Position numbers and translations under genes: made by a program
In this document: piece by piece, positions 1 through 16,668 of the stretch
Layout of the letters: every line of letters starts with the position of its first letter
How positions within the stretch are numbered: position 1 is the first letter of the stretch
Notes under the pieces: generated by a model
The model's input: only the letters and a program-made list of their open reading frames with translations
Told to the model about the DNA's origin: nothing
The model's database searches: none
Assembly (NCBI GenBank): GCA_016184315.1
Contig: JACPCU010000017.1
Coordinates: 1 to 64,000 of the forward strand
DNA: 64,000 bases
Direction of reading: 5' to 3'
From: Nitrososphaerota archaeon
Lineage (GTDB): Archaea > Thermoproteota > Nitrososphaeria > Nitrososphaerales > JACQRY01

Positions 1-3000
1 GAAGGCAAAAGCGGCTCAGAAGTACAAGTCCGCAACGTGCAATTCGGAATAATGCCGCCAACAGGCTTCTTCACCCAGTTCAACATAGCATCCATCATCC
101 TATCCCCCAACTTCGGCGCCAAAGGCTCAACAGTAACGGTCAAAGGCCAAGGCTTCCCCACAACAATCGGAACCGTGATAAACGGCTACAGATTCGGACC
201 AGTAGAGAAAACCTTCACAACACCAGTCTCCGTTGCCACAGACGGAACATTTACCGCCGTCATCACAGTCCCAACAGAAGCCTCCCTCACCCAAGGAGGC
301 AGATACCCCGTCGAATTCCGTTCAAGCCCCACAGAACGCTTCTCCATGTCCGAGTTCCAAGTAATCTCCACATCAGGCTCATTCATACTCGCCGCGTCAC
401 CAACGTTCCTGCCACCAGTAGAGCAAGGCGGCACCGCCACCCTATCAATATCAATCACATCACTAAACCAAGCGACACCAACAGTAACAGTCTCAGTCAG
501 AGGACTCCCACCCAAGATCACCTCATCCGTAAACGGCTCCTCAACAGCAGCAGTCACCCTATCCAAAGGAGACACCAAATCCCTCCCACTCACGATTACA
601 GTAGACCAGTTCGCCCCGCCAGGCCCCTACCCATTTGAAATCAGAGGCGTATCCGGCAGCGAAGAAGTCGTCATACCCATCATGTTCGGCATAATGCCCA
701 AGATCTCACTATTCGGATTAGCCAACATCCTCCTCTCACCAGACGTAGGCGGAAGAGGAACCACAGTAACCATATCAGGCCAAGGCTTCAGCACCGTCGC
801 AAACACCAAGATCAACAGCGTTCAACTCGGCCCCAGAACCATAACCTTCACCACCCCAGTAGACGTAACCAGCGGCGCCTTCACAGCAGTCATCAGCATC
901 CCGTCAGACATGCCCTTCGGCTTCCACCCACTAACCGTAGCAGACACACAAGGCCGACAAGACACCAAACCATTCAACGTCATACCCGGCAGCCTCAGCG
1001 AAGCAGGAACATCAGGCCTAGCATTCGCATTCACCCTAACAGCATCACCACCCTTCATAGGACCAGTCGTACAAGGAGGCACAGGCACCACCAAGATCTC
1101 CATCCAATCATTGAACAACCAGAACCCAACCGTACAACTCAGAGTGGACGGCGTCCCACCCGGAGTGACCGCCTCATTCGACGGCGCAGGCAGCACAGTC
1201 ACCGTCACCGTGCCACCAGGTCAAACGGTTAGCAAAGAACTAACCCTAACCGTGGGCAGCACAACACCACCAGGACCCTACGGACTCAGCATCACAGGCC
1301 AAAACGGAACCCAGATCTTCAACCTCCCACTCGGCTTCGGAATCATGCCCAACATAGGCGGAGGAATAGGATTCGCAAGCATAGTAGCTAACCCCGACTC
1401 CGGCCGCCCAGGCGACCAAGTCACCATATCCGGAGCAGGCTTCCAATCAGGCCAATCCGTAACCATCCTGGTAAAGCCACCAGGAGCCCCAATAGAAATC
1501 ACATTATCCTCAAGCCAAATCACAGTCCAATCAGACGGCACATGGTCCTTCACCGGCCAAATCCCGTCGAACACACAACCAGGATTCTACGAACTCATCG
1601 CCAGAGCAGGAGGAAGAGAGGCCAGATCACCCATGAACATCATACACGGCTCCACAGGAGGCTTCTTCGTCAAACTCTCACCAGACTTCCTCAGAGTAAA
1701 CCAAGGCTCCTCAGCAAACACAACCCTGACAGTAAAGTCCTCAAACTCCTTTACCACCAGCCTCTTCTTCGGCGTAGAAGGACTACCCCCAGGCATTACA
1801 GTCAAATTCATCAAAGAAGACCAAACCATAGTCAGCCAATTCACCGGAAGCGGCTTCGGAAACAATCTCATCACCACACCAACACCCGTAACACCTCCAT
1901 CAGGAGGAGTCCTCAAGATAACAGTAAACGTAGCCGCCTCATCCTTCACATTCGCAGGCGCATACCCCATCTTCATCAGAATAGACCGCATCGGAGCCCC
2001 CGGTGAAGGCAGACCCCTCGGAATAGCCGTCTTACCCACCGGAGGAAACAGCATAACCCTCACCCCGCCATCAGGCTCAACAGGAACCGGCGTCTCAGTC
2101 TCCGGAGTAGGATTCGGAGCAACAGAAACAATCAGCATCAAATTCGCGGGATCAACAGTAACAACTGTGCCAACAACAATCACAACAGGATCAGACGGAA
2201 CCTTCTCAGCGGCAGTAACGATCCCATCCGGGTTTATCCCAGGATTATACCCAATATCGGCGACCGGTGCAACAAGCGGAAAATCCTCTACCGCCCCATT
2301 CAGCCTGTTCCCCAGTCTGAGTACCTTCAACTTCTTCGTCTCACCACCCCAGATCGCCATCCCTAAGGGAGGCTCAGGAAACTTCACACTAACCATTCAA
2401 CCCTACGGAATCTTCAACTCCACCGTAACCCTCAGCGTAGCAGGTCTCTTGTCAGGCGCCTCCACAGCCTTCTCACCCTCATCATCAGTAGCACTTACCG
2501 TGGGAACCCCCACAACCGTAGCACTCAAAGTCACAATACCAAGTAACGCTCAGACTGGCGCATCCTTCTTCAGCATCACCGCCTCAGGAGGAGGAACAAC
2601 CCAACCCTTCCCCGCATCCATCCGGGTCACCCCGATAGCAAGTGAACAAGACTTTGACCTCATCCTGGGTCCACCGGGAGTCGTAATCCCTCAAGGCGGA
2701 AATGCCAATGTTTCAATCATCATAAGAAGCTTCAACGGCTTCTCATCAGCCGTTACGCTGTCAACCACCTCGACAACCGCAGGCCTGACTCGCACCCTAG
2801 GAGCCAGCAGCATCATACCAACAGCAACAGGCATCGCCTCAACAAGCGTTTTGGTAACAGCATCAGGAAGCCTACAGCTAGGAAGATACCAAGTCACAGT
2901 AACCGGAACATCCGGCGCTACAGTAAGACAAACGGTCCTACAAGTCGGCATCATGCCCTCAGGAATAACCATACAGCAGTTCAACCCGCCGCCTGTGCTG

Positions 3001-3693
3001 CCCCAGCAAATTACTCCACTAACCCCACTGCCCATCGAGCCTCCGTGGGGAGACAAAATAAACATCAACAGCATGATCACCGATGTTTCTCAATCAACCC
3101 AGATCATACCAAGGAACATACCCAGATCACCGTCAAACCTCAGCGCTCTACCTACAGGCTCAAGTGACGCACTTGGAAGGGTAACCAGCATCGAACCCTC
3201 CGTCAACGTCACGAAAGTTAACGCCCTCCTAAGCTTCCCCTACGACCTCACAAGGCTCGGCCAGCTAGGCCTAACCCCAAGCAACCTTAGAGTAGCCTTC
3301 CTGGCAGACAACGGCACATGGGTCAGAGTCACAACAACATTGAACACTTCTACTGGCACAGTTTCAGCCAACATTACCCACTTCTCAAGCTGGACAGTCC
3401 TCGGCTCCCCGCCGAGCTTCTCAGCATCAGCAAGCCCATCAACCCTCAGCATCACACAGGGAAAGTCAGACACCTCGACCATCACCCTGACCTCTCTTAA
3501 CACCTTCAACTCAGCCATAACCCTCACAGTAACCGGAGCCCCATCAGGAGTCACCACGTCATTCTCCCCAAGCTCCTCAACGTCCAAGCCGCAGCCGCTG
3601 CCCCAGGAGCACCCCCCGCAGCACCAGACTTCAGCATCACATCCAGCGAAACAACCCTATCCACAGTCAAGCCCACCACTGTCTTCACACTGA
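1..3693 (+). CDS. Giant modular surface protein, N-terminal and central part (5' end outside window)
   Basis: The frame is open from the first base, so the protein begins upstream. It is a tandem array of beta-sandwich modules that alternate between an IPT/TIG-like type (pattern S-P-x3-G-x3-T-V-x-V-x-G-x-G-F) and an Ig/NEW3-like type (V-x-Q-G-G, then G-x-P-P-G-V-x-A-x-F). Modules are punctuated by an F/V-G-I-M-P pentapeptide. Near residues 1060-1125 lies a domain ending in H-F-S-S-W-T-V, common in archaeal envelope proteins. No enzyme motif is seen; a cell-surface or extracellular structural or adhesive role is inferred. The sense strand is strikingly T-poor and C/A-rich. The last 35 or so codons read as low-complexity Pro/Gln/His because the frame is lost near 3580; the real protein continues in another frame. 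Confidence 0.8.
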   Translation, partial: EGKSGSEVQVRNVQFGIMPPTGFFTQFNIASIILSPNFGAKGSTVTVKGQGFPTTIGTVINGYRFGPVEKTFTTPVSVATDGTFTAVITVPTEASLTQGGRYPVEFRSSPTERFSMSEFQVISTSGSFILAASPTFLPPVEQGGTATLSISITSLNQATPTVTVSVRGLPPKITSSVNGSSTAAVTLSKGDTKSLPLTITVDQFAPPGPYPFEIRGVSGSEEVVIPIMFGIMPKISLFGLANILLSPDVGGRGTTVTISGQGFSTVANTKINSVQLGPRTITFTTPVDVTSGAFTAVISIPSDMPFGFHPLTVADTQGRQDTKPFNVIPGSLSEAGTSGLAFAFTLTASPPFIGPVVQGGTGTTKISIQSLNNQNPTVQLRVDGVPPGVTASFDGAGSTVTVTVPPGQTVSKELTLTVGSTTPPGPYGLSITGQNGTQIFNLPLGFGIMPNIGGGIGFASIVANPDSGRPGDQVTISGAGFQSGQSVTILVKPPGAPIEITLSSSQITVQSDGTWSFTGQIPSNTQPGFYELIARAGGREARSPMNIIHGSTGGFFVKLSPDFLRVNQGSSANTTLTVKSSNSFTTSLFFGVEGLPPGITVKFIKEDQTIVSQFTGSGFGNNLITTPTPVTPPSGGVLKITVNVAASSFTFAGAYPIFIRIDRIGAPGEGRPLGIAVLPTGGNSITLTPPSGSTGTGVSVSGVGFGATETISIKFAGSTVTTVPTTITTGSDGTFSAAVTIPSGFIPGLYPISATGATSGKSSTAPFSLFPSLSTFNFFVSPPQIAIPKGGSGNFTLTIQPYGIFNSTVTLSVAGLLSGASTAFSPSSSVALTVGTPTTVALKVTIPSNAQTGASFFSITASGGGTTQPFPASIRVTPIASEQDFDLILGPPGVVIPQGGNANVSIIIRSFNGFSSAVTLSTTSTTAGLTRTLGASSIIPTATGIASTSVLVTASGSLQLGRYQVTVTGTSGATVRQTVLQVGIMPSGITIQQFNPPPVLPQQITPLTPLPIEPPWGDKININSMITDVSQSTQIIPRNIPRSPSNLSALPTGSSDALGRVTSIEPSVNVTKVNALLSFPYDLTRLGQLGLTPSNLRVAFLADNGTWVRVTTTLNTSTGTVSANITHFSSWTVLGSPPSFSASASPSTLSITQGKSDTSTITLTSLNTFNSAITLTVTGAPSGVTTSFSPSSSTSKPQPLPQEHPPQHQTSASHPAKQPYPQSSPPLSSH
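43..2958 (+). repeat. FGIMP-punctuated module repeat in the surface protein gene
   Basis: A pentapeptide F/V-G-I-M-P recurs at nt 43-57, 685-699, 1336-1350 and 2944-2958. The first three are 642 and 651 nt apart, about 214-217 residues, each unit being one IPT/TIG-like plus one Ig-like domain. The last interval (1608 nt) covers more divergent modules. This is a protein-level repeat; the DNA itself is diverged. Confidence 0.65.
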
Positions 3694-5162
3694 GTAGCAT
3701 CAACAACTTCGCCGCCCAAGTCAGCCTCACCGTAACCGGTCTACCTTCAGGCGTAACAGCGAGCTTCACCTCCACAAGCCTCTCCCTCACAGCAGGAGGC
3801 ACAGCCGGCACATCCCTTACGCTCGTAATATCCTCAACCGCAACACCAGGAACCTACACACCAATAGTAACCGCGGTAAGCGGAAGCCTCACACACCAAG
3901 TCCAACTCACACTCACCATCCCCACAGGAGTAGCTAAATCCTCACCCAACAGCGTAACCGGAACCACAGCCACAGTAGACAACACCGCCACGACAGGCAT
4001 CAAAGTAGCCCTAACAGGACTAACCTACACCACAGGAACCCAAGGAACCATAACCACAGTAACCTACTCATCCACTCCGACCACAGCAGTAACACTGCAA
4101 ACAGCCACAGGAGGAACACCGATCAAATACCTGGACGTCGCAGCCACCAACATAGCAGGCGGAACAGCCACAGTCACGCTCACCTACAGCGAAAGCGACC
4201 TGGGAGGAGTATCCGAAAACACCCTCACACTCTACTACTACACAGGATCAACATGGTCAACCCTATCCAACATAAGCAGAGACACCACCGCAAACACAGT
4301 GACAGGAACCATCGACGTGACCAAGCTGACAGGAACCATCATCAGCCTAGCGGGAGCATCACTCCAGCTGGGCGCACTAACAATAACATCAGCAGGAGCC
4401 ATAACAACCATAGACGAAGGCCAAACAGTCACATACACCGTAACGGCAACCTACACAGACGGAAGCCCAGCCTCATCAGTAACAATCAAGATCCTCAGAG
4501 ACAACGCGCAAATCGCCACAGCCACCACAGGCATCGCCGGCACAGCAACCATCACACTGACCTTCGACCAGCCAGGCACCTACATCATATCCGCAACAGG
4601 CGACCTAACAGGAATACAGAAGAGCACCCTAACATCAACAGTCGTAGTAATATCCAAGAGAGTCACCGCCGCCCTAACCATCGAGAAGACCAAGCTCCAA
4701 CCAGGAAGCTCACTCAAAGTAACCCTCAACCTCAACTCCACAAAACTCCTCGAACAAGGCACCGTCACCATAACGCTACCACAGAGCTTCACCGCCAAGA
4801 ACGTCCAAACCACCGGCTTCCAAGGAACAGCCACCATCCAGAACAACATCCTAACCATACAGAAGACCACCGCAACCACATCCACAAGCCAAGCAACCAT
4901 AACCTTCACACTGTCATCACCCATCAAAGGCATCAAAATCGGCCAAGCAATCACAGTAACGGCAACCGTAGACGTCCTAGGCCTAAGAACAGTCTTCAGC
5001 ACAGACAGCACCTTCCAAATAACCATCGAGAAGCCAAGCGCGAACAGCGTATTCAGCGTCTTGGACAGCTACTTCGCCAAGACCGTTAGCGCCCTAACCG
5101 AAGACAGAGTGCCGACCGTGGCAGACATATTCGCCTTACTTGACCTATACTTCGGAGCGTGA
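3582..5162 (+). CDS. Giant modular surface protein, C-terminal part in shifted frame
   Basis: From about 3582 the repeat pattern resumes in the -1 (or +2) frame and is open to the TGA at 5160-5162. No ATG, GTG or TTG occurs in this frame before 4299, so it is not an independent gene but the tail of the preceding one. It holds an Ala/Pro linker, an Ig-like module, a domain with a S-x-W-S-x-L motif near 4250, another Ig-like module (about 4390-4650), a cohesin-like or Ig-like beta domain (about 4670-5030) and a helical tail with two L-D-x-Y-F motifs. There is no C-terminal membrane helix, so the protein may attach through a partner, perhaps the product of the next gene, which overlaps it by 4 nt. 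Confidence 0.7.
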   Translation, partial: VQAAAAAPGAPPAAPDFSITSSETTLSTVKPTTVFTLSSINNFAAQVSLTVTGLPSGVTASFTSTSLSLTAGGTAGTSLTLVISSTATPGTYTPIVTAVSGSLTHQVQLTLTIPTGVAKSSPNSVTGTTATVDNTATTGIKVALTGLTYTTGTQGTITTVTYSSTPTTAVTLQTATGGTPIKYLDVAATNIAGGTATVTLTYSESDLGGVSENTLTLYYYTGSTWSTLSNISRDTTANTVTGTIDVTKLTGTIISLAGASLQLGALTITSAGAITTIDEGQTVTYTVTATYTDGSPASSVTIKILRDNAQIATATTGIAGTATITLTFDQPGTYIISATGDLTGIQKSTLTSTVVVISKRVTAALTIEKTKLQPGSSLKVTLNLNSTKLLEQGTVTITLPQSFTAKNVQTTGFQGTATIQNNILTIQKTTATTSTSQATITFTLSSPIKGIKIGQAITVTATVDVLGLRTVFSTDSTFQITIEKPSANSVFSVLDSYFAKTVSALTEDRVPTVADIFALLDLYFGA

Positions 5163-5938
5163 AAATAGCGATGAATAACCAGATTCAAGCCCCACTATTC
5201 AGGATAGCAGCAGCCTCAGCAGGCATACTCATGCTTCTACTGGCTGCTGCACCACTTATCCACGGCCAGGCAGCCCAAGCCACCGTGGACTTCGCCCTCA
5301 AAGACAACGTCATAACAATCACCGTCCAGAGCCCAGTGTCAGTAGCAAAATTCCAAATCTCAATAACAACATCCACAACATACTCAGTTAACCCTTCCAC
5401 CGCCAAACTCTCAGGCTTCCTACAAGGAGCAACCCAGCTGACCAACACCGAAAGCGGAAGCAACGAACACAGATGGTTCAACCTGAACGCACAGCCAAGC
5501 CAGACCGGCACCCTAACCCTGCCAGCCTCACCACTCACAGGAGGAGCAAAACTCAGCCTCATCAAAGTAGACCTACAAGACGCCTCTGGTAACACAATCG
5601 CCGTCTCAGGCACCCTCCCAAGAGACCCAGTCATACTGACCACCACCGTTACGACTACAACAGCAACGACAACCGCCCTGTCAACAGTAACCGCAACAGT
5701 CACCTCGGTGGCAACAACCGCGACAGTCACTGCAACCCAAACCGCAACTACGACACTCCCAGTTACTGTCACTAACACAGTCACCGCGCCAGCAGGAACA
5801 GTCACCTCAACGGTAACACGGACAACCACGATTCAAGGAGCTGAAGGGATCTCCCAGACTGCCCTGATAGTAATCGCAATCCTAGCCATCATCGTCGTGG
5901 TCCTGCTCGTACTCGGAATGAGACGAAGACCAGCCTAG
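5159..5938 (+). CDS. Secreted, Thr-rich-stalk, C-terminally anchored protein
   Basis: The product has 259 residues. The GTG start overlaps the previous stop (GTGA); an ATG four codons on is an alternative. An N-terminal hydrophobic signal (about residues 15-37, ending A-x-A) is followed by a beta-rich domain of about 120 residues whose layout loosely resembles a cohesin fold. Then comes a Thr/Val stalk (about 160-220) and a single membrane helix ending in Arg-rich G-M-R-R-R. The hydrophobic helix plus basic tail is the arrangement of sortase/archaeosortase-type anchors, and an archaeosortase-like gene lies 8.5 kb away. The overlap argues for co-translation with the giant surface protein and a role in anchoring it. 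The cohesin reading is a hypothesis. Confidence 0.72.
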   Translation: MKIAMNNQIQAPLFRIAAASAGILMLLLAAAPLIHGQAAQATVDFALKDNVITITVQSPVSVAKFQISITTSTTYSVNPSTAKLSGFLQGATQLTNTESGSNEHRWFNLNAQPSQTGTLTLPASPLTGGAKLSLIKVDLQDASGNTIAVSGTLPRDPVILTTTVTTTTATTTALSTVTATVTSVATTATVTATQTATTTLPVTVTNTVTAPAGTVTSTVTRTTTIQGAEGISQTALIVIAILAIIVVVLLVLGMRRRPA

Positions 5939-6008: not shown

Positions 6009-6884
6009 TTGAGTACAGGTGAACACTTCACGCCCAAACACAGACAAATCCTGCTCCTCCTGACCATTGCCGTATTCATAACACTGCCCAAAGCCTACGG
6101 CCAGACGCTGGAACTCTCACTAGACAGGAACGCGTATCTCCCAGGATCAAACGGGGAAATAACCATCACCCTAAGAGAAGCACCCAGTCAGAGGATCAGC
6201 CAAGCCAACGCCACCCTAGAGATCATCTACTACAACACAGAGGGTAGAATCAACGTTGACAGATACTCCTCCAACAGCACCCAAGCCAAACTCGGCGATC
6301 CCGTCGTTTTCCGAATCAGACTCATCATCAGCTCATCCGCCTCACCAGGCTACGCCAATATCAACTCACAAGTCTCATACGCTACCACCGGTCAACTCAA
6401 GATACTGTCCGGTGAACCCAAACAACTCTACATAGAAAGCCCCTACCGTAAGACCGCAGAACAGCTCGCACAAGAACTATCAGCACTCAAGTCAACCATC
6501 GCCAGTTCAAACAACAGCATCAAACAACTCTCAGACAACATCAAGAAGCTCACAGAGGAAAACCAGAAGCTCACTCAGTCAAACAACGAGCAGGCAAAGA
6601 AAACCTCCGATCTCGTCCTGACAACCACCAAGCTGCAAGACGAGATTAGATCTCTCAACGATAAACTCCGGGCTGAACAACGCAAATCATCGAGCCTCGA
6701 ACAACAACTAGCCCTCCTCGGCATCCAAAACTACTTTGTCGGCAGGGAAATCATAAACTACGTCACCATCGGAACAGTAATCATCGCCGCAGGTCTTGTC
6801 TTCGTCTGGCTCATAAGGAGCAAAAGACTCATAATAGAGATTCAGAAAGACACGAAAAGCCATGACGAGGACAATGCCACGTAG
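6009..6884 (+). CDS. Membrane-anchored secreted protein with Ig-like domain and coiled coil
   Basis: The product has 291 residues from a TTG start. Residues about 12-30 form a signal peptide. Residues about 32-140 form a beta-rich domain with the pattern of an archaeal macroglobulin/NEW3-like module (Y-L-P-G-x-N-G-E). Residues about 150-240 are a heptad-rich Lys/Glu/Gln coiled coil, and 250-272 a membrane helix followed by a short charged cytoplasmic tail. It follows the surface-protein genes at 70 nt and has the same C-rich codon use, so it probably belongs to the same envelope unit, for instance as a spacer or stalk. No enzymatic motif is visible. Confidence 0.75.
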   Translation: MSTGEHFTPKHRQILLLLTIAVFITLPKAYGQTLELSLDRNAYLPGSNGEITITLREAPSQRISQANATLEIIYYNTEGRINVDRYSSNSTQAKLGDPVVFRIRLIISSSASPGYANINSQVSYATTGQLKILSGEPKQLYIESPYRKTAEQLAQELSALKSTIASSNNSIKQLSDNIKKLTEENQKLTQSNNEQAKKTSDLVLTTTKLQDEIRSLNDKLRAEQRKSSSLEQQLALLGIQNYFVGREIINYVTIGTVIIAAGLVFVWLIRSKRLIIEIQKDTKSHDEDNAT

Positions 6885-14460: not shown

Positions 14461-15510
14461 ATGTTTTTCCCAAAGCTTTACACGTTTTTACAAGAACCGC
14501 TTAACTACTGTCTTCATCATCTCCAAGCGGTATGGTGCGCGATCGTGTCAATGATCATCAGCTATGTAACTAGTCCGCCCAAGATATTTCTGATATCTGT
14601 CTTGGTGCTAGTTGCCTACGCCTCTGATCCTGGGAGCTTCGCGATGGCATGGAACCAAGGCAGGGCGGCTATGATTGCCGTGATCCCTCTTGCGATGTTG
14701 GAGATGGGGAGAGGCGCATTTAGTCGAGAGCCTTGGATGCGGGCACGGTACGGTTACATGGTTCTAGGTGTATCTGTTGCGTACTATCTGATCTGGACTC
14801 TGACGAGCGCTAGAGATCTGGTTACTCGTTTCGCCATAAGACAGGGTGTTTCGCCAAGCGTTGCGCCTTTCAGCCCGGTGCAGTCTGTTGACTATGGTGT
14901 TACCACGATCATGCTTGCATCGCTTACGTTGGTGGTGTTGCGTTCAAAGGCGGTGACACCTGTTCTTTATCTGGGCGGTATGACTGCTTTTCTCTTTGTT
15001 GACGCGGCTCTTCCATATGATTCTTTGGGGTTGTTGCAGTTTGTGGTTCCGTCTATACTCGTGTTCGTTGGGGCGATCGTCAATGCTTCTGGGCTGGGAG
15101 GAGCCTTTGCTCAAAACAATATTCTCACATTGACCCGTGGCGGAGGATTCATGAACTTGGCGGTCTTCTGGCCTTCAGCTGGCGTCCATAGTATTATCAT
15201 CACTCTTTTGGCCACAATAGGCCTCTCAGCCAAACTTCATACATCTGCCAACCGTACACTGGCATATCTTGGTCTAGGTATTCTGGGAAGCCTAATCGTT
15301 AACGTTTTCCGGATCTCTCTCCTATCCCTGTACGCCTTAGGCAACATTTCAGACCCAGAAGCCTTCGAACGATTCCACTCCGTAGCAGGTGAAATACTGT
15401 TTCTCCCATGGATCGCAGGCTACCTGCTATGGCTCGTAAGACGGGAAACCCACTTCAAACACGAGCCGACCCGCATCAAATCCCATGCGGTTGACGCAGA
15501 TCGTTCTTAA
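14461..15510 (+). CDS. Archaeosortase/exosortase-family transpeptidase-like membrane protein
   Basis: The product has 349 residues with about 9 hydrophobic helices. The C-terminal half has the exosortase/archaeosortase layout: P-S-A-G-V-H-S near residue 238 (where the nucleophile Cys normally sits), N-V-F-R with the conserved Arg near 282, and F-H-S-V-A-G-E with the conserved His near 304. Ser replaces Cys. My recollection is that a thaumarchaeal variant of this family has the same substitution. The family cleaves C-terminal signals of surface proteins on the outer face of the membrane and reattaches them, so possible substrates are the anchored proteins at 5159-6884. The start could also lie at a later ATG. 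Confidence 0.72.
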   Translation: MFFPKLYTFLQEPLNYCLHHLQAVWCAIVSMIISYVTSPPKIFLISVLVLVAYASDPGSFAMAWNQGRAAMIAVIPLAMLEMGRGAFSREPWMRARYGYMVLGVSVAYYLIWTLTSARDLVTRFAIRQGVSPSVAPFSPVQSVDYGVTTIMLASLTLVVLRSKAVTPVLYLGGMTAFLFVDAALPYDSLGLLQFVVPSILVFVGAIVNASGLGGAFAQNNILTLTRGGGFMNLAVFWPSAGVHSIIITLLATIGLSAKLHTSANRTLAYLGLGILGSLIVNVFRISLLSLYALGNISDPEAFERFHSVAGEILFLPWIAGYLLWLVRRETHFKHEPTRIKSHAVDADRS

Positions 15511-15538: not shown

Positions 15539-16366
15539 TTGGCTAGACTCGTAGCTGCTATGGGGATGACCCATACTCCGCTGATCTACTGGTCTAAGAA
15601 GACCCCCCCTGAAGCTGACCGCGCCGCGGTTTTCGCGAGCTTTGGGCAGCTAAGAAAACGCATGGATGAAGCCTCTCCAGACGCAATAATCGTCATCGCG
15701 AACGACCATATAGACAACTTCTTCTACGACAACATGCCTCCCTTCTGCGTAGGTATCTCGAAGAAGGCTGAAGGACCCTTCTCCATGGAACACGAAATGG
15801 GGCTCCCAAAATACTCCTGCCCTGTCAAAGACGACTTGGCCACCCAGGTGTTTAAGACTGGCCTCAGCATGGATATGGACCTGGCTTCGACTCAAGAATT
15901 CGGTGTGGATCACGCTTTCGTCATGCCACTCCTCTTCGTAGCTCCCTCTATGAGTGTGCCAATAGTTCCGGTCTTCACTAATACTCTTGTGCCCCCGATT
16001 CCGCAGCCCAAGCGCTTCTACCATCTAGGGAAGATGATTTCTGCAGCTATAGAGAAACGTCCAAAGGACGAAAGAATAGCTGTTCTTGCCAGCTTTAACC
16101 TGAGCATAGAGGTCGGAGGACCGCGAATGAGGCAGATCGACCAAGACTTTAACCAGTCAGCTCTTGAACTCATGGGCGCAGGACGAGTAGACGATATCTT
16201 GTCCCAATTCACTCTGCGACGAATATTCAACGCAGGAAACGCAACGGGTGAATTCCTCAACTACTTGGGTCTGCTAGGCATAATGGGTTCAGAGAAACCT
16301 GCCTACATAGATCTCAGGAACCCACCGTTCTGGGGAAGCTGCCCCGCCATAGCGTGGGACACCTAG
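15539..16366 (+). CDS. Class III extradiol ring-cleavage dioxygenase, LigB-type catalytic subunit
   Basis: The product has 275 residues from a TTG start. Family features are an N-terminal G-M-T-H-T-P (iron-binding His), I-V-I-A-N-D-H near residue 55 (second His) and an F-G-V-D-H-A-F motif. The family cleaves catechol-type rings, or acts in related C-C bond chemistry, using non-heme Fe(II). The companion LigA-type small subunit lies head-to-tail opposite at 16363-16668, and the two genes share a CTAG stop palindrome. A ring-opening role for a plant- or lignin-derived aromatic is likely; the substrate is unknown. Confidence 0.85.
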   Translation: MARLVAAMGMTHTPLIYWSKKTPPEADRAAVFASFGQLRKRMDEASPDAIIVIANDHIDNFFYDNMPPFCVGISKKAEGPFSMEHEMGLPKYSCPVKDDLATQVFKTGLSMDMDLASTQEFGVDHAFVMPLLFVAPSMSVPIVPVFTNTLVPPIPQPKRFYHLGKMISAAIEKRPKDERIAVLASFNLSIEVGGPRMRQIDQDFNQSALELMGAGRVDDILSQFTLRRIFNAGNATGEFLNYLGLLGIMGSEKPAYIDLRNPPFWGSCPAIAWDT

Positions 16367-16668
16367 CTGGTCTCCTCTTCTTCTAAGTAGTAGTCTTGAT
16401 ATGGGTTTCTCAGATTCTTAAGCCTAGGAACATCCTCCTTCAGAAACTTTTCATAATCTCCATTGACACTCACTATGTGCGCGACTAGCATAGGGTGTAC
16501 ACCCATCCCGTATAGCGCCACGTAATCCTTCTCCAACAGGACTTTCTTCTCCTCTTCAGTAACATCAACTGTGTCTATGATTAACGCAGGGTCTTCTCTG
16601 AACCGCTTCCTAAGAACCTCATCAGCGTATAACCGATGTATGAGCTTACTCACTTGATAAACACTCAT
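16363..16668 (-). CDS. LigA-type small subunit of extradiol dioxygenase
   Basis: The product has 101 all-helical residues. Typical motifs are L-Y-A-D-E-V-L-R-K-R-F-R-E-D-P and, in the middle, L-L-E-K-D-Y-V-A-L-Y-G-M-G-V-H-P, as in the protocatechuate 4,5-dioxygenase alpha subunit. It would cap the active site of the LigB-type partner. Unusually it is encoded convergently rather than in tandem, with a 4-nt overlap of the two stop codons, so the subunits are transcribed from separate promoters. Confidence 0.82.
   Translation of the reverse strand: MSVYQVSKLIHRLYADEVLRKRFREDPALIIDTVDVTEEEKKVLLEKDYVALYGMGVHPMLVAHIVSVNGDYEKFLKEDVPRLKNLRNPYQDYYLEEEETS

Follow-up and report, generated by a model that had tools for sequence, protein, structure and literature searches.

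The gene and its active-site residues

The window, meaning the whole stretch of 64,000 nucleotides analysed here, carries the one archaeosortase homologue found in its genome (2.0 Mb assembly, 35 contigs, 91.9% complete). The gene and the codons of its three putative active-site residues are as follows.

14461-15510, forward strand: gene of the Ser-type archaeosortase homologue, 349 amino acids, ATG start, frame open throughout
15175-15177, forward strand: TCA codon of Ser239 (in WPSAGVHS), at the catalytic Cys position of the family according to the alignments
15310-15312, forward strand: codon of Arg284 (in NVFRIS), the invariant Arg of the family, present in 54 of 54 rows of one alignment and in every row of another with 34 proteins of the Ser type and 27 of the Cys type
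15376-15378, forward strand: codon of His306 (in ERFHSVAGE), the invariant His of the family, present in the same 54 of 54 rows and the same 34 Ser-type and 27 Cys-type rows

In a search of curated profiles, the encoded protein matched the exosortase/archaeosortase signature TIGR04178 with 44.2 bits, above the cut-off of 23, which bears out the earlier sequence-only reading of the gene as archaeosortase-like. The top match was thaumarchaeosortase (TIGR04297; 1.1e-39, 136.8 bits, profile positions 4-292 of 307), yet this score lies below the family cut-off of 250. The second-best archaeosortase profile, archaeosortase C (TIGR03762), gave 35.1 bits against a cut-off of 100, and the protein is thus assigned to neither family. 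Nearly all of its named relatives are thaumarchaeal, at 32-38% identity, which on our reading of their names puts the genome in the GTDB order Nitrososphaerales. The Pfam profile search returned no match, and sequence relatives in the PDB were found neither by a single-protein search (four weak, unrelated matches) nor by a profile. The AlphaFold2 model, based on an alignment of 54 relatives, reached a mean pLDDT of 91.9 and a pTM of 0.82. Its 12 helices of at least four residues, mostly 15-35 residues long, fit a polytopic membrane protein, and a fold search of the PDB with the model gave no match at E values up to 0.001. In the model, three short strands directly precede Ser239, which is placed just ahead of a helix starting at residue 242.

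The TIGR04178 signature comprises a catalytic Cys, an invariant Arg and a later Arg, His or Asn. The last two are present as Arg284 and His306 (61 of 61 rows), and the place of the Cys is taken by Ser239, within PSAGVHS (residues 238-244). This agrees with the earlier proposal of a Ser at the nucleophile position with the Arg and His of the family in place. No nearby Cys aligns with the catalytic position either, as the only two cysteines of the protein, C17 and C26, lie near the N terminus, in a segment where the remaining Ser-type rows have gaps. Given the missing catalytic Cys, we class the protein within a Ser-type branch of the superfamily and not as a Cys archaeosortase. The chemistry would be altered by a Ser, as had also been suggested, because a thioester mechanism has been proposed for the family (PMC7157517, available in part).

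Genes for LigB-like (15539-16366) and LigA-like (16363-16668) dioxygenase subunits adjoin the sortase gene, on opposite strands. At the start of the window, 37-3693 encodes a large surface protein with Ig-like/TIG repeats and a low-complexity end at 3693, and like sequence continues in another frame at about 3500-5162. The two look like a single gene split by a frameshift, either real or from assembly.

Distribution and origin of the serine

An alignment of 71 proteins, covering 41 of the 68 Nitrososphaerales genomes with TIGR04297 matches over the cut-off and 29 of 51 places outside the order, separated the two residues completely: Ser occurred in all 42 rows from the order (the window protein and 41 others) and Cys in all 29 rows from outside it. 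A second draw from deep lineages of the order added 27 proteins, 25 with Ser and 2 with Cys. Overall, Ser was found in 67 of 67 Ser-type proteins examined in the Nitrososphaerales, compared with 31 Cys-type proteins (the 29 from outside the order and two paralogues). Families f5, f71, f74 and f77 all have Ser, though they are only 28-42% identical to the window protein. Further, proteins above the TIGR04297 cut-off have Ser at the Cys position in 41 of 41 cases examined, as in the window protein; this feature comes from the present alignments and not from the family text, and the curators of TIGR04297 may already be aware of it. The Ser codon was TCN, one base away from TGY, in all 122 codons counted, a figure that includes 80 named loci found partly through a Ser-bearing pattern. 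Among these named loci, WPSAGVHS appeared in 80 of 80, which is biased by the search pattern itself (FWPSAGVH), and they were excluded from the 67. One Ser-type locus (L035) reads WPSAAVHS. On these alignments, Ser at the nucleophile position is a fixed clade trait of the Nitrososphaerales and not a peculiarity of 14461-15510, and the clade retains the Arg, the His and the polytopic build of the family.

The two Cys-type paralogues (L212 1159-2055 and L213 1438-2334) are distant second copies with GPCTGIKG, found in genomes G454 and G446 of family f77, each of which also holds a Ser-type copy. Judging from their gene content, both chemistries may coexist within one cell. In the deep-lineage draw, a Cys-type enzyme alongside a Ser-type one was found in no genome other than these two.

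Apart from Ser239 itself, only Leu288 and Pro316 were near-fixed in the Ser type (at least 33 of 34 rows) and different in the Cys type. Leu288 is four residues past Arg284 and Pro316 ten past His306. The His at +4 of the nucleophile (WPSAGVHS) was considered as a general base for the Ser and dropped: it is kept in the first 42 Ser rows and replaced by Gln or Asp in five deep-lineage loci (L197, L207, L208, L210 and L211).

In a maximum-likelihood tree of 61 proteins, inferred with the nucleophile column removed, the Ser/Cys character requires one change. The branch separating the Ser type from the rest was recovered in 68% of bootstraps with an SH-aLRT of 80, a modest support under which a single origin is favoured and unproved. 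Together with family f5, the window protein occupies a divergent branch (100/100 support; 37-42% identity). Locus L070 is absent from both of the trees built, and L069, L212 and L213 from the second. The Ser-type clade largely overlaps the curated TIGR04297; within the clade, the window protein is divergent and scores under the TIGR04297 threshold.

PEFG and PEFP tails as sorting signals

The PEFG-CTERM profile TIGR04296, partner of TIGR04297, was present in 68 of 68 genomes of the order with TIGR04297 over the cut-off in a draw across the phylum, at 2 to at least 19 copies each, and in none of the 5 genomes of the order without the enzyme. Two genomes from outside the order with Cys-type enzymes had a PEFG-CTERM match too. 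Across 300 genomes of the order, 163 held both enzyme and PEFG tag, 17 the enzyme only, 8 the tag only, and 112 neither (Fisher p = 5e-53, a figure that is inflated by related genomes and is not a probability of function). The 17 of 180 enzyme-bearing genomes without a PEFG match at E 0.001 are mostly deep lineages and, in the examined ones, PEFP tails occur instead of PEFG tails. For example, genome G402 has IGSTVIPEFPYP and LGTTVIPEFPGL, G408 has IGTQVVPEFPPG, and G475 has TAPEFPAAS, plus GVPEFPTVS in a gene divergent from the Ser-type enzyme. One such PEFP tail belongs to L210 2739-3638, which in a close relative lies next to, and is divergent from, the Ser-type gene (1462-2514). PEFP tails were also detected in Cys-type genomes, one in 140 kb of G328 and two in 120 kb of G073, with all scrambled motifs at zero; none was found within 140 kb of a third, G043. 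The same signal type therefore accompanies both nucleophile types. Taken together, motif and profile searches identify PEFG/PEFP-CTERM as the sorting signal of the Nitrososphaerales, and genomes with the enzyme encode secreted proteins in which PEF[PG] precedes a C-terminal helix and a short basic end.

In the window's genome, TIGR04296 gave nothing over the cut-off (best 10.5 bits against 25), so the TIGR04297 partner is missing there. A motif search of 41% of this genome nevertheless yielded two proteins with tails of the form VTGTxxVPEFP, both on other contigs, in line with the earlier expectation that sorting-signal proteins would exist in the genome.

L183 14395-15705: signal peptide (by eye), tail VTGTNVVPEFPSY, helix and basic tail
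L232 1-201: tail VTGTVAVPEFPQR, helix and basic residues, truncated by the contig end

The body of the first has a weak glycoside-hydrolase-like match under the cut-off, and the second scored 19.4 bits on PEF-CTERM (TIGR03024), below the cut-off of 23. In the 41% sample, the two PEF[PG] tails compare with one each for the scrambled orders PFE and FEP and none for the three other orders. As the three-letter motif is barely above these controls, it is the longer VTGTxxVPEF match that carries the tag claim; VTGTSVVPEFGAF of a Nitrosopumilaceae gene (L032) closely resembles both tails. The substrates in the window's genome are likely to be these two VPEFP-tailed proteins, to judge from their tails. 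The window protein resembles thaumarchaeosortase (TIGR04297) in its Ser, Arg and His, and differs in scoring under the cut-off, in its position on the f5 branch, and in a genome with PEFP rather than PEFG tails.

The substrates originally suggested for the enzyme were two proteins of the window itself, both thought to end in a helix and a basic tail.

5159-5938 (5144-5935), forward strand: Thr/Val-rich stalk, GAEGIS, helix and MRRRPA, a tail-anchored form
6009-6884, forward strand: secreted coiled-coil protein with a membrane helix and a long acidic tail, IRSKRLIIEIQKDTKSHDEDNAT (ending SHDEDNAT)

Neither could be retained, as PEF[PG] is absent from all window open reading frames of at least 90 amino acids. 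The described ending is seen in 5159-5938, which is unsupported as a substrate: besides lacking PEF[PG], its AEG could not be linked to any sortase signal, and no convincing further copy of its tail turned up in the genome (next best E 0.105). The description fails for 6009-6884, which was rejected on account of its acidic tail and whose sequence features suggest an ordinary membrane anchor. An EG before the helix is common to 5159-5938 (5144-5935) and two further proteins of the genome (L181 710-1483 and L170 18312-19277). As a sorting signal this shared EG was weak and was given up once the VPEFP tails emerged; it could represent a second anchoring signal, or chance. In L181 710-1483, a plastocyanin-like copper protein, a Thr-rich stalk is followed by LAAEGTL, a helix and RRRR.

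A proposed Ser-based reaction and its alternatives

Considering residue conservation, the tree and the accompanying tags, we think it probable that 14461-15510 encodes a working Ser-type archaeosortase, from a clade with a single origin close to the base of the Nitrososphaerales. The enzyme would form a Ser acyl-enzyme in cleaving PEF[PG]-CTERM proteins. In such a reaction, a PEF[PG] protein would be exported and retained by its C-terminal helix. At the outer membrane face, Ser239, aided by His306 and Arg284, would attack the backbone at or near PEF[PG]. The helix would then depart, and an oxygen ester, not the thioester proposed for ArtA, would link the protein to the enzyme until an acceptor (an amine, a lipid or water) frees it.

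A comparison for these steps is ArtA of Haloferax volcanii, which belongs to the same superfamily, is a multi-pass membrane protein and acts on substrates with a C-terminal helix and basic residues; its Cys173, Arg214 and Arg253 are critical (PMC9263693, available in part). In the scheme proposed for it, which its authors call speculative, the Cys attacks, the C-terminal peptide leaves, a thioester forms, and archaetidylethanolamine then attacks in turn (PMC7157517, as far as that text is accessible). ArtA differs from the window protein in its nucleophile (Cys173 against Ser239), its third residue (Arg253 against His306) and its signal (PGF against PEF[PG]). It differs in the proposed acceptor as well: the decarboxylase PF02666, needed for the suggested amine-lipid route, turned up in a single genome among 81 of the order. 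PF02666 was also absent from all 37 Cys-type genomes, and its loss was dropped as a partner of the Ser switch. Its absence from 80 of 81 and 37 of 37 genomes suggests that the acceptor in the phylum is probably different from that of the ArtA route for both nucleophile types.

We would put about equal weight for and against a fuller scenario, in which a single change, close to the root of the Nitrososphaerales, turned the nucleophile of an intramembrane transpeptidase from Cys to Ser while the PEF[PG]-CTERM signal was kept. Surface proteins would then be anchored through an oxygen-ester acyl-enzyme onto an acceptor other than archaetidylethanolamine, and the co-fixed Leu288 and Pro316 may make the Ser reactive. 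Ser is apparently not a free swap in ArtA itself, given that the C173S mutant is reportedly non-functional (Abdul Halim 2018).

Amines attack oxygen esters less readily than thioesters, and on this general chemistry the enzyme might be a Ser hydrolase and not a transpeptidase, cutting PEF[PG]-CTERM tails and passing the ester to water, thereby trimming and shedding proteins or leaving them unanchored. The near-absence of PF02666 from the order would fit such a reaction, but its equal absence from the 37 Cys-type genomes makes it uninformative on Ser. Moreover, PEFG proteins of a freshwater ammonia-oxidising archaeon are described as membrane-anchored, by annotation (PMC9122916, available in part). 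We regard hydrolysis without anchoring as unlikely.

Cys to Ser is also the classic inactivating change, as the reported behaviour of C173S in ArtA illustrates, and the protein could be a pseudoenzyme that lost catalysis with its Cys and now serves to chaperone C-terminal helices or to act as their receptor. Dead sites otherwise drift, whereas here the Ser is strict (all 67 proteins, with no Ala, Gly or Thr) and the Arg and His are invariant across deep divergence, even as the residue at +4 within the same span varies between His, Gln and Asp. In addition, enzyme and tag are gained and lost jointly across the 300 genomes, and in the deep-lineage draw a Cys-type enzyme was found beside the Ser-type one in two genomes only. 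A pseudoenzyme thus appears very improbable. Finally, an error of sequencing or assembly, or a misreading of 14461-15510 through a frameshift, is conceivable in a fragmented assembly (35 contigs, 91.9% complete) with another window gene frame-broken. It is refuted by 66 further proteins of independent genomes that have the same motif, and carries practically no weight.

Sorting-type enzymes with Cys and those with Ser are usually members of different families. In the present case, a single family seems to have exchanged its nucleophile once, with the exchange fixed across an order that includes ammonia-oxidising archaea. In the open-access literature searched, partly as incomplete texts, we found no statement of a Ser nucleophile in the exosortase/archaeosortase family. 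The Cys-type sister genes with the same tag type allow a direct comparison of what a transpeptidase requires to run on Ser, and the proposed reaction points to the probable anchoring mode of the cell-surface proteins of these archaea, copper proteins included. Archaeosortase C (TIGR03762), which we take to be Cys-type and to pair with PEF-CTERM (TIGR03024), is a related case by its 35.1 bits on the window protein and 19.4 bits for one tail on TIGR03024, both below the cut-offs. Rhombosortase, of the rhomboid family, is a Ser enzyme acting on a C-terminal tripartite signal; it belongs to an unrelated family, has GlyGly-CTERM as its signal, and serves as an analogy for the Ser chemistry alone (PMC11980579, available in part).

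In families f5 and f77, a gene for a membrane glycosyltransferase of family 2 sits beside the Ser-type one, with Pfam matches at L198, L207, L208 and L210 only; similar ends of open reading frames were seen at L200 and L211. No neighbour of this kind was found near the window copy.
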